Of a stretch of 51,710 nucleotides of DNA, positions 10,569-16,594 are shown one piece after another; position 1 is the first letter of the stretch; every line of letters begins with the position of its first letter. The translations under genes were made by a program, and so were the position numbers. The stretch is taken from contig CALAJH010000069.1 of the NCBI GenBank assembly GCA_937922655.1, positions 1 through 51,710 of the forward strand. The letters run 5' to 3'. The DNA comes from an uncultured Bacteroidia bacterium. GTDB lineage: Bacteria > Bacteroidota > Bacteroidia > J057 > CALAJH01. Under the pieces are notes generated by a model. It did no database searches. It was given only the letters and a program-made list of their open reading frames with translations, and was not told the DNA's origin.

Positions 10569-10745
10569 CCCTACCCGGGTGCGAAAATCGTTTCCGCATC
10601 TCGTTCGGCAAGGCTATACGACCAACGATGAAAAATCGAGCCGTGTGTTTCATAAAAGACGCCGAAAATAATTTCGGTTTAACGCCGGCGCAAACGCAAG
10701 CCGGCGGACGGATTTAGCGGGTCGAAGGCGGTGTATTTTGGGGGC

Positions 10746-12041
10746 ATGAACTTCGACTTTACCCGCAACGAAAAACAAGCGCAATTTTTTCGGGCGGTGG
10801 CGGCGGCGTGCGACGGCGCTTCTCCCCAACGCTACTTCTTTTACGGCGGCGGCGTGCGCGGCGGAAAAACCTCCATTTGTTTGGCGACGCTTTTGTGGCT
10901 GGCGCTTAAATATCCGGGGGCGCGGGCGCATATCGTACGCGAATCCCAACCTTTGTTGTTTTCGACCGTACGCCCCGCTTTCGACCGTCTTTGTCCGCCC
11001 CATCTCCTTGCCGAAAAGCGTTTTTCCGGCGGCTTGGCCCACTATCGATTCAAAAACGGCAGCGTCTTACATTTGTTTTCCGAATCCTTTGCCCACGACC
11101 CCGATTTAGACCGGTTCAAAGGCCTCGAAACCAATTTTTTTCTTTTGGAACAGGCCGAAGAACTGCAATATCAAACCTTCGTTAAATGTTTGGAACGCGT
11201 CGGCTCGTGGCGTTTGGAATCCTCACCGCCCGGCGTGGTCATGGCCACCTTCAATCCCGCCCAAAATTGGGTCAAAACCGAAATACGCGACAAATACTTG
11301 GCCGGACTTTTGCCCGAAGCCTATTTTTACCTCGAAGCCTTGCCGAGCGACAATCCCTTCGTTACCGGCGAACAATGGAACGCATGGAAACATATGGACC
11401 CGCTTTCGTACCGACGATTCGTTGAAGGGGATTGGACGGCCTTCGAAAACGAAAAACGCTTTGCCTACGCCTTCGACCCCGCACGGCACGTCGTCGCCCG
11501 CGCTTTTGTGCCGACCCTGCCCGTCTATTTAAGCTTTGATTTCAACGTCGAACCCTTTTGCGCGACGGCCTTCCAAACCGACCGTGCAACATGGGCGCAC
11601 GCAACGGCCGAGTTTCGCATCGAGCGGGCCGACGTCTACGAAATGGCGGCGGCGGTGCGTCGACGCTTTCCGGGCGCGGTGTTTTATCTTACGGGCGACG
11701 CCTCGGGCCGCCAACGTTCGGCGCTCACGGCCGCCAACGCCTCCGCCTATACCATATTGACCGAAGCCCTCGACGTCGCGCCCGCTTGTTTGGACGTGCC
11801 CATCGTCAATCCAAGCCACAGGGAAAGCCGCGTGTTTGTCAACGCCCTGCTTTCCCGTTGGAACGGCCTTTCCATTTCCCCCGAATGCCCTGCGCTCATC
11901 GAAGATTTAAGCGTTTGCAACGTCGACGAACGCGGGCGTATCGTCAAATCCCACGCCTTACAAACCCATCTGCTCGACACCTTCCGTTATTTTCTACATA
12001 CGTATTTTGCCCACCTTTTGCCCTCGACGGCACGCGTCTAA
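10746..12041 (+). CDS. Phage-type terminase large subunit
   Basis: A 431-residue protein with the two domains of a terminase large subunit, the motor that packages phage DNA into capsids. The ATPase part has Walker A GGGVRGGKT (34-42), a Walker B-like NFFLLEQAEEL (130-140, in the style of xWxEEA terminases) and a coupling motif ATFNPAQNWV (167-176). The nuclease part keeps the three acidic positions: D265 in SFDFN, D318 in LTGDASGRQR and D411 in LLDTFRYFL. Nothing is broken, so it is not an obvious decayed prophage remnant. The neighbours are an ABC exporter and a CorC-family gene; no small terminase or portal gene adjoins it. A GTG at 10731 is in frame, but the ATG at 10746 is preferred. Assignment to the terminase fold is fairly sure; the biological role here is not. 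Confidence 0.75.
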   Translation: MNFDFTRNEKQAQFFRAVAAACDGASPQRYFFYGGGVRGGKTSICLATLLWLALKYPGARAHIVRESQPLLFSTVRPAFDRLCPPHLLAEKRFSGGLAHYRFKNGSVLHLFSESFAHDPDLDRFKGLETNFFLLEQAEELQYQTFVKCLERVGSWRLESSPPGVVMATFNPAQNWVKTEIRDKYLAGLLPEAYFYLEALPSDNPFVTGEQWNAWKHMDPLSYRRFVEGDWTAFENEKRFAYAFDPARHVVARAFVPTLPVYLSFDFNVEPFCATAFQTDRATWAHATAEFRIERADVYEMAAAVRRRFPGAVFYLTGDASGRQRSALTAANASAYTILTEALDVAPACLDVPIVNPSHRESRVFVNALLSRWNGLSISPECPALIEDLSVCNVDERGRIVKSHALQTHLLDTFRYFLHTYFAHLLPSTARV

Positions 12042-14897: not shown

Positions 14898-15119
14898 ATG
14901 GAAGAAAAGTTCGTCGTCATGGAGAACGCGGCGGGGGTTATGCAGTTTTTCCCCGAAGCGTTTTATAAACAGTATTTTTCCGACGGCAAACCGACGACGA
15001 CCGCGGACGGTCGGCCGGTGGTCTCGGAATTGTCGGGATTGTCGTTGGCGGCCGGGGTTCGGGCGGTGATACGTCAGTTTCCGTCGGGGCCGGCGGTGAT
15101 GGAAATCGAAAAAAAGTAA
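14898..15119 (+). CDS. Small unknown protein, first gene of the capsid-like cluster
   Basis: A 73-residue acidic-basic protein with no membrane segment or recognised domain (MEEKFVVMENAAG... FPSGPAVMEIEKK). I do not recognise it. It is followed after 3 nt by the next small gene and then by the capsid-like gene, all on the plus strand, so it is probably part of the same transcript. In phage genomes small genes at this position often encode head accessory or decoration proteins; that is only positional inference. Confidence 0.5.
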   Translation: MEEKFVVMENAAGVMQFFPEAFYKQYFSDGKPTTTADGRPVVSELSGLSLAAGVRAVIRQFPSGPAVMEIEKK

Positions 15120-15122
15120 AAA

Positions 15123-15419
15123 ATGAACATGGATACGCATCCTTTGGGTTGGTTTGCGCCCGAGGCGCCGCAGGTTGTTGCGCCGTTGTCGGAGGAGGGT
15201 TCGCCGCCGGTGGTTTCGGAAACGCTCCCCGTTGCAACAAACGCTGAAGCGAGGGTCGTTCCCGCCACGCCGACGGCGCAAGCCGACCCTGCGGCCGTCG
15301 TGGAGCGCGCCGTTGTGTCGTCGGACGACTATTTGCGGGGCGGCCGCTACCGGCCGGAAGAGAGTCCGTCGGTATACCGCAGTTTTGTACAAACCCTTAT
15401 TCGTGAAAGGATATGTTAG
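15123..15419 (+). CDS. Small Pro/Ala/Val-rich protein preceding the capsid-like gene
   Basis: A 98-residue protein whose middle (about 12-65) is low-complexity Pro/Ala/Val/Glu, apparently disordered, with a more regular charged C-terminus (DDYLRGGRYRPEESP, FVQTLIRERIC). The stop overlaps the start of the capsid-like gene by 7 nt (ATGTTAG), so the two are probably translationally coupled. The position and composition would suit a scaffold-like or head accessory role, but there is no sequence proof. Confidence 0.5.
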   Translation: MNMDTHPLGWFAPEAPQVVAPLSEEGSPPVVSETLPVATNAEARVVPATPTAQADPAAVVERAVVSSDDYLRGGRYRPEESPSVYRSFVQTLIRERIC

Positions 15420-16504
15420 GATATTGCGAAGCCTTGTTGGTGGGCTTGGAGGAGGTCGCGGGCCTTAACGATCCGCAACTCAAAACCCGGCCGACGGGAT
15501 TGATTCAAGCCCTTCGTTCGACGAACAACACGCGTAATTCGGAGGTTTTGCGCGTCGATTCGGGCGACGGCCACCGGGTGGACGTAAGGGTGCGGCGTTT
15601 GTTGCGTTCGCGTGCCGTCGACACGCGCACCTCCCGCTCTTGCGACCCCGTACTGACCCCCGTCTACAACGAACAGACCGTTACGATAAGCAATTACCGC
15701 GAAACGGCCGTGGCCGTTACATGGGACGAAATTTCGCGTTATTGCAAGGAGGCCTCGTCGCTGACGAGCAACGGCCAACGCATCGCCGGGGCGCCGAACA
15801 CGCCGTTGATGCGCGACCATTTGCGTAAAATCATGGCGGCGATGAACGGTTTGCGGCAGGCCGTCAATCAGGACGTATGGGCGGCGCTTGCGGGCTCGTT
15901 CGGATGGAACGGCGTTACGCTTTCGTCGGCGCCGAAACCGGTGAATCTTTTGCGGGCCTCGCTCGACAACGCCAAAATCGAGGAGGGCCTGCAAGACCTG
16001 ATGTTCGACATGGCCTTCAACGAGGTCGAAGGCACTCCCATCGTCGTTGGCGCGGGTATTTTTCACCGTTTCAACACCTCGATACAATACGGCTGTTGCA
16101 ATTTGGGCGGTTTCGATTGGAAAGGGCCGTCGTCGGAAACGCCGTACGAATATTGGCTCGATTGGACGGCGCAAACGGCATTGGGCGCCAACCAGTTTGC
16201 GGTATTGGCGCCGGGCGCGGCCCAACTGCTCACCTACAACCATTACAGGGGGGCGTTTACGGGCCGGCACGGCGCCAGCGATTTCGGCGTTTTGCCCGAC
16301 CCCTATCTTACCCCCGGCGAAACCCCTTGGGCCTGGGACTTACAACTGCGTTTCGAGGATTGCGGTCCCAACGCCAGACGTTATACCGCCATCGTCGGAA
16401 TCACTTTCGGACTCTACACTTTACCCGCCGCCTCCTTCCCGCCCGGCGACCCGCTTTCAAACGTGAATGGAATTTTTCGATATCTTGCACAAATCAAACC
16501 ATAA
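15413..16504 (+). CDS. Putative phage major-capsid-like protein
   Basis: A 363-residue protein with no signal peptide. Its C-terminal third (ending PWAWDLQLRFEDCG, FGLYTLPAASFPPGD and VNGIFRY) looks like the end of major capsid proteins from Bacteroidota phages, where a Trp-rich strand, a D-C pair and a VNG-F/L-Y ending recur. The middle (about 95-185) holds amphipathic helices as in a capsid spine and A-domain region. The call rests on pattern memory, not alignment, so it is moderate. It overlaps the upstream small gene by 7 nt and is followed by a strong terminator. The terminase lies 3.4 kb upstream; no portal or protease gene lies between them. Confidence 0.5.
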   Translation: MLGYCEALLVGLEEVAGLNDPQLKTRPTGLIQALRSTNNTRNSEVLRVDSGDGHRVDVRVRRLLRSRAVDTRTSRSCDPVLTPVYNEQTVTISNYRETAVAVTWDEISRYCKEASSLTSNGQRIAGAPNTPLMRDHLRKIMAAMNGLRQAVNQDVWAALAGSFGWNGVTLSSAPKPVNLLRASLDNAKIEEGLQDLMFDMAFNEVEGTPIVVGAGIFHRFNTSIQYGCCNLGGFDWKGPSSETPYEYWLDWTAQTALGANQFAVLAPGAAQLLTYNHYRGAFTGRHGASDFGVLPDPYLTPGETPWAWDLQLRFEDCGPNARRYTAIVGITFGLYTLPAASFPPGDPLSNVNGIFRYLAQIKP

Positions 16505-16565
16505 ATTTTGTAACTTGCATTCGTTTTTCAGATTTCTGTTTTTTTTGTTTTTTTGAGAAGGCACG

Positions 16566-16594
16566 AGGCCCCATTCCGGGGCCTTTGCTTTTTT
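16566..16594 (+). terminator. Rho-independent terminator after the capsid-like gene
   Basis: AGGCCCC (16566-16572) and GGGGCCT (16578-16584) form a 7-bp perfect stem with a 5-nt loop, followed by a T-rich run to about 16594. It lies about 60 nt after the capsid-like stop and closes the three-gene cluster. Confidence 0.75.

Follow-up and report, generated by a model that had tools for sequence, protein, structure and literature searches.

Isolated phage-type head, packaging and tail genes of a Bacteroidia genome suggest a dispersed, gene-transfer-agent-like particle

A three-gene module that ends in a capsid gene, found in the genome of an uncultured Bacteroidia bacterium, appears to be one of the loci encoding a host-kept particle of phage origin that resembles a gene transfer agent (GTA) with unlinked genes. 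We consider this rather probable, and the particle possibly serves the passage of DNA between cells. Besides its prophage copies, the genome carries one lone copy of each of the eight head, packaging and tail gene families that we queried (8/8), and these lone copies stand at eight places on five contigs (Table 1). The module itself lies in the window, by which we mean the whole 51,710-nucleotide stretch analysed. The window is contig C69 of this genome (G000; 3.58 Mb, 84 contigs, rated 100% complete).

Table 1. Features of the module and lone particle genes of G000. Names of flanking genes outside the window come from reading of the translations.
Feature	Contig	Position	Strand	Description	Basis or surroundings
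s73	C69 (window)	14898..15119	+	73 aa, function unassigned	coding score +10.8; no significant homologue
s98	C69 (window)	15123..15419	+	98 aa, Pro/Ala-rich, amphipathic C-terminus; probable minimal scaffold	position and architecture
Major capsid protein, HK97 fold (predicted)	C69 (window)	15413..16504	+	363 aa	profile kin, predicted fold
Intrinsic terminator-like hairpin	C69 (window)	16565..16594	+	8 pairs, 6 G-C, then T6	
Lone phage terminase large subunit	C69 (window)	10731..12041	+	436 aa, alternative ATG 10746 possible	
Lone portal	C15				between FKBP-type gene and homoserine kinase gene
Lone tail-tube-like gene	C63				between secA and adhesin-type gene
Lone tail protein	C58			795 aa	near PP2C gene
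Lone tape measure	C28			373 aa	near prfA and BamA-type gene
Lone post-capsid protein	C28				about 29 kb from lone tape measure
Lone tail-associated protein (A18 family)	C58			358 aa	63 kb from lone tail protein; between hslU and GNAT/pyrB pair

The preliminary description of this DNA had read the module (14898-16504) as two small ORFs and a capsid-like gene on one strand, with a 3-nt gap and a 7-nt overlap, closed by a strong terminator. These coordinates are confirmed, and the closing hairpin has the most G-C pairs among the 10 terminator-like sites of the region, a number of sites that proves nothing in itself (5.6 ± 2.7 in shuffles). The module is flanked by a gene for an outer-membrane-type protein, which has no Pfam match, and by an SMC gene. 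The codon-based coding score was +44.9 over 363 codons for the capsid gene and, for s73, was reached over 73 codons; s98 scored an uninformative +0.5 over 98 codons, and a long antisense frame across the small genes was not coding-like (-28.4). The host-codon scores of s73 and s98 were +0.04 and 0.00, respectively. The two small ORFs share a reading frame and are separated by one TAA and three bases only; they may be two genes or a single gene divided by a stop.

Performing profile searches of the genomes, we found two paralogues of the capsid in G000 (contigs C78 and C52) and one relative in another genome, G006. Both paralogues sit in prophages, beside portal and scaffold-position genes, and the C78 prophage additionally has tape-measure, tail and replication-type genes. 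Phages in IMG/VR carry capsid relatives at about 30% identity, and the capsid start at 15413 fits that of one of these phage relatives, L216 (MLGYCEALL and MALGFCPALL). The window capsid had no match in Pfam or PHROGs. Neither it nor the G006 capsid matched any of 50,697 phage records in tblastn, and the window capsid as a single-protein query retrieved nothing from IMG/VR or the named genomes. An AlphaFold2 model built from 17 sequences reached a pLDDT of 72.4 and a pTM of 0.78, and the fold searches used this model only; a six-sequence model (pLDDT 38) was useless. Foldseek matched the model to the capsid of mycobacteriophage Douge (E 9.4e-7). In VIA it scored Z 15.2 against the Douge chain and 13.1 against the best encapsulin (M. 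xanthus EncA), and in a viral structure library it matched phage capsids. Predicted fold and phage major capsid relatives together identify the product of 363 aa as a major capsid protein of the HK97 fold, so that the third gene had been named correctly.

The small product s98 is Pro/Ala-rich as first described (24% P+A), and its scaffold-like character gained support from its position. In all 14 related capsid loci compared, an ORF of 198-339 aa occupies this place before the capsid gene, and it is as short as 98 aa in the window only. The count covers G006, the two prophages, G131, G152, L216, L212, L057 and G401-G406, and leaves out G251 and the remaining IMG/VR loci. The plan of s98, a Pro-rich part and an amphipathic end, resembles that of the scaffold ORFs in L216, G006 and both prophages and is less evident in the scaffolds of G403 and G404. 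Thus s98 is probably a shortened scaffold, judged by place and layout. Neither small ORF matched Pfam or PHROGs, and profile and single-sequence searches detected no homologue of s73 or s98. The expectation that the small genes are conserved where the capsid gene is kept therefore stands for the position and fails, at this level of detection, for the two sequences.

We also checked s73 against a 112-aa family that precedes the scaffold in six named genomes. The profile search gave a short FFPExxYxxYF-like match, and s73 was rejected as a member because 5 of 2000 shuffles scored higher. In single-sequence tests, s73, s98 and their joined reading were compared with 19 proteins (57 tests, 300 shuffles each). 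No shuffle (0/300) equalled the scores of s73 against the 112-aa protein (5.7 bits) and the G405 scaffold (6.1 bits), of s98 against the G131 scaffold (1.5 bits) or of the joined reading against the G405 scaffold (4.3 bits), each of which is suggestive only among 57 tests.

The terminase gene lies 2.9 kb upstream of the module. Its product matches PHROG 2 (E 1.4e-20), is 39% identical to the terminase of IMG/VR phage L062 and, compared with three relatives, keeps the Walker A motif GGGVRGGKTS and the nuclease motifs SFDFN, TGDASG and HLLDTFRY. The gene is flanked by an ABC transporter gene and a CNNM gene, and no small terminase or lysis gene was seen beside it. The preliminary description had further taken the module to be self-contained, able to assemble a shell without tail or packaging genes. 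This claim did not survive, as the window itself holds a packaging gene and G000 carries isolated portal, tape-measure and tail genes at other places.

We found these by searching G000 with the structural-gene families of its resident prophages at a cut-off of E <= 0.001. The terminase and the capsid were known from the window beforehand, and a lone copy of each of the other six families was predicted and might not have turned up; the query set did not include scaffold, MuF-type, tail-chaperone, small-terminase or lysis genes. PHROGs lends independent support to three of these genes, the lone portal matching phage portal families, the lone tape measure phage tape-measure families and the lone tail protein virion-protein families. 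The lone tape measure compares with 876 and 958 aa in the two prophages, and the lone portal is about 150 C-terminal residues shorter than its relatives. Weak matches were C25 in the tube-like search (E 0.76) and C58:39235 in the A18-family search (E 0.13). In the phage contig L216, homologues of the tail, tail-associated, portal, capsid and post-capsid genes stand in a single line. The genes dispersed in G000 thus have a linked counterpart in phages. No motif shared upstream of the eight lone genes was clearly above 25 Markov resamples.

Several features of the prophage-type loci may be recorded here. The portal family has a DnaJ-like cysteine motif, approximately CxxCxG...CxxCGGxG, which both lone portals have with small changes (L029:9356-10558 (-), L030:8875-10536 (-), L005:10656-12386), and the sole match of the C78 prophage portal in the phage records is a weak one to Croceibacter phage P2559Y. 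A pentapeptide-repeat-like protein adjoins the tube-like gene in both prophages (L005:9525-10082, L006:19243-19893). In a third prophage fragment of G000 (L042, on C47), a DNA-methyltransferase-like ORF lies between the tape-measure gene and the next tail gene.

We then ask whether the lone genes are leftovers or kept genes. When the ORFs of 18 loci, phage or phage-bearing, were run by tblastn (E <= 1e-4) against ten lone loci of G000 and G006, everything matched apart from the lone genes was, by our reading, host-type (ABC ATPases, TPR/kinase and secreted proteins). This filtered search did not show the lone tape measure, which rests on its profile and PHROGs matches. The structural genes of G000 stand among bacterial genes, and no linked phage replication, integration or lysogeny genes were seen; none of the lone loci shows head, tail, replication and integration genes linked as in a prophage. 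All seven large lone genes scored showed host-like codon usage (LLR/codon +0.13 to +0.30), where 13 of 14 host genes and 0 of 14 prophage genes were positive; the eighth lone gene, a later find, is outside this scoring. This usage suggests long residence in the host without loss of the frame. In the order, the capsid profile matched 2 of 22 genomes. In the class it matched 4 of 395, and in that sample, at that sensitivity, the capsid is lone in G000 only. The other three (G131, G152 and G251) carry capsid kin in phage-like surroundings. G006 was not among the matches of this sample, and a more distant lone capsid could escape the profile.

G006 belongs to another family of the order and carries terminase, portal and capsid as lone genes, spread over three contigs of an uncultured Bacteroidia MAG (contig C44 of G006 is CALDDN010000044). 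On the three contigs no other phage genes were seen, except a scaffold-position ORF before the capsid. Five of the eight families (tube-like, tail, tape measure, post-capsid and A18) were not found in this genome, which is 56% complete, and a tape-measure-like match on its contig C18 holds a stop (E 0.02). The capsid and portal are nearest to a different phage lineage (L057, L059, L290). The terminase (L013:11657-12937, minus strand) runs off the contig end with one flank unseen, and its nuclease motifs are intact. Its Walker A motif reads GRRYGMT against GRRWGKT in phage kin, Met replacing the Lys that is kept in all five phage kin printed.

Scanning named genomes for the terminase gave 16 loci, of which 12 were examined and L233, L235, L237 and L240 left out. 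By reading, seven are lone, one of them that of G006, and five have phage-type surroundings. The remaining lone terminases belong to SZAS-23, UBA4414, IBVUCB1, UBA6221, an uncultured 'Bacteroides sp.' and Taibaiella BROCD030 (G401-G406); Chitinophagales is indicated by name for IBVUCB1 (Chitinophagaceae) and Taibaiella, and for the other four the label would rest on likeness. These six terminases are 55-85% identical with intact motifs, and portal and capsid are present in all six genomes. In G401-G404, the terminase, the portal and a scaffold-capsid-post-capsid trio lie within about 25-40 kb of a single contig, with secreted-protein, kinase and other host-type genes intervening; tail genes were seen in G401-G403, and the printed portions of the translations show no integrase at the G401-G404 loci. 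Portal and capsid occupy separate contigs in G405 and in G406. At locus L252 the reading covered the portal only. A further terminase match, in G059 (E 5e-10), stands beside a portal-like ORF.

Other proteins recur around these gene sets. A DnaJ-domain-like gene lies, by reading, between the terminase and the tail genes in G401 and G403 (L264, L265), and a small-terminase-like protein of 129-136 aa is read near the gene set at the same two loci (L264, G403:C2:1404937-1405326; L265, G401:C5:304235-304645). Look-alike proteins of about 94-95 aa stand beside portal or lone terminase genes (L250:12206-12490, L251:10532-11309, L231:6111-6395, L234:1269-1553) and are possible partners or regulators. 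In G406, an ORF starts tape-measure-like and ends portal-like (L254:1786-2973); the contig with this ORF is probably chimeric, and the terminase contig of G406 has a coverage of about 4.

Selection was checked in the six named genomes by NG86; no close relative of G000 was among the genomes compared. The ratio dN/dS ranged from 0.011 to 0.36 in the 51 of 56 pairs where it was computable; five pairs gave no ratio, and dS exceeded 1 in all but two of the rest. The G404/G406 pair is the sole unsaturated one for the capsid (dN/dS 0.011, dS 0.46, 99.1% identical), and it gave 0.048 for the scaffold (dS 0.86) and 0.093 for the terminase (dS 1.05). The firm values are thus the capsid and scaffold ones of this pair only. 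Other capsid pairs lay at 0.05-0.09 with dS above 1, and, at mostly saturated dS, the terminase ranged over 0.05-0.19, the portal 0.06-0.14, the post-capsid gene 0.03-0.16 and the scaffold 0.05-0.36. Scaffold and terminase were compared in all six genomes and the post-capsid gene in five. The capsid was compared in five, as the G402 gene holds an ambiguous base, and the G405 frame, which runs on, was cut at the usual end; the portal was compared in four, leaving out the frame break of G405 and the chimeric contig of G406. The closest pairs were consistent, G404/G406 for three genes compared and G402/G403 for four. These comparisons support purifying selection on the gene sets of the named genomes; for G000 the codon usage is an indirect sign only.

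The trees suggest separate origins and domestication more than once. In the terminase tree, the window gene groups with phages of IMG/VR (97/95), the genes of the six named genomes form a single clade (100/99) beside a phage, and G006 is placed elsewhere. Joining the window terminase with the six was rejected by the AU test (p 0.0006), and joining it with that of G006 was rejected in the second set (p 0.005) and gave p 0.157 in the first. The first set took 33 of 80 IMG/VR loci and dropped four partial ones; for the second, 12 further far or near-duplicate rows were dropped and eight added (29 in all). The capsid tree is unresolved (window with G006, p-AU 0.157). A single domestication common to the window, G006 and the six named genomes is unsupported by the AU tests.

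For the GTA-like particle, the logic is one of linkage. A phage with structural genes at eight loci cannot package itself, so that such genes, if kept, serve the host. A selfish phage needs linkage and a host-serving particle does not, and open but unlinked genes are therefore expected after selfishness has been lost. The cell would express the whole scattered set, s98 would scaffold a procapsid, and portal and terminase would fill it headful-fashion without selecting the genes of the particle itself, which lie too far apart for joint packaging. A short tail, itself a GTA-like trait, would deliver the DNA as in gene transfer agents. Counting against this reading are the short portal of G000, the Walker A Met of G006, the lack of a common upstream motif, trees that do not join the lone terminases and the yield of only three of eight families in G006.

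Some of these points would equally fit decay, in which the lone genes are the last pieces of old prophages surviving by chance. Two prophages and a third fragment of this kind remain in G000, its lone portal is C-terminally short, and the G006 terminase has lost the Walker A lysine. Chance survival must nevertheless account for eight different families with one copy each, every piece isolated with its frame open and no remnant neighbours found, for host codon usage in the seven genes scored, for capsid matches in just 4 of 395 genomes and for purifying selection in the six named genomes. We hold decay to be unlikely. Improbable to a further degree is that singly captured head and tail genes act as independent decoys, poisoning or blocking related phages by joining their particles. 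Single structural genes could be dominant-negative, and G000 is lysogenised by phages of the same family; a nearly full head-packaging-tail list, one copy each, exceeds the needs of a decoy, and the terminase retains its enzymatic motifs. The encapsulin-type shell built by the trio, as first proposed, has a very small chance. The predicted fold is close to encapsulins too (the VIA Z scores above), but the sequence kin are phage capsid proteins adjoining portals and scaffolds, no cargo-enzyme gene adjoins the capsid gene, and the remaining particle is encoded elsewhere in G000. Decay, decoys and a plain shell are thus each less likely than the GTA-like particle. That assembly or binning error spread prophage pieces over contigs is scarcely credible, even for 84 contigs of what may be a metagenome assembly, given lone genes inside contigs amid bacterial genes, host codon usage in the seven scored and a similar arrangement in other assemblies.

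Few GTAs are known, most of them from Alphaproteobacteria. Like RcGTA and its kin (Rhodogtaviriformidae) and BhGTA/VSH-1, the putative particle draws on host-kept head, packaging and tail genes of Caudoviricete origin, and the gene types looked for in a GTA (caudoviricete-type capsid, portal, large terminase and tail genes in the host genome) are present in G000. Most RcGTA structural genes are kept in one cluster; G000 differs in having eight families at eight places, as isolated genes except for the capsid with its two small ORFs, in belonging to another phylum with a likely different phage ancestor, and in being known from genes alone. The phages L216, L057 and L062 of IMG/VR and the prophages C78 and C52 have homologous capsid, portal, terminase, tail and post-capsid genes, but theirs are linked, most of the compared proteins are longer, and the codon usage of the two prophages is unlike that of the host. 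Encapsulins have the HK97 fold in common with the window capsid; they differ in that the latter has phage kin and no adjoining cargo gene (CNNM, outer-membrane-type protein and SMC genes are its neighbours).

The known RcGTA genes are scattered over five loci (PMC9662315), GTA operons are dispersed, and understanding of GTA operation, prevalence and phylogeny was in 2026 'extremely limited' (PMC12946183). The dispersal in G000 is nearly gene by gene, beyond the few-loci spread known for GTAs. FpGTA of Faecalibacterium (PMC12946183) likewise has chromosomal GTA-like terminase, portal, scaffold and capsid genes outside Alphaproteobacteria; FpGTA I differs in being podovirus-like, in its 10.5-kb operon and in having its packaging of host DNA shown by sequencing. 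No Bacteroidota GTA appeared in the titles or abstract openings among the literature matches listed, a coverage outside which lie bioRxiv and most subscription papers.

There is about an even chance, in our estimate, that Bacteroidota domesticated tailed phages into DNA-transferring particles repeatedly, their genes in some lineages being dispersed almost singly. If true, GTA-like sets, in dispersed and loosely clustered forms, would extend the phenomenon to a major phylum. Such systems would escape prophage- and cluster-based searches, and GTA-like particles may be far commoner than supposed. The corresponding search principle is to look for co-occurring, unlinked, host-ameliorated phage genes instead of clusters, and Chitinophagaceae bacterium IBVUCB1 is a strain offered for testing. 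Open, unlinked structural genes would then be the genomic signature of lost selfishness.
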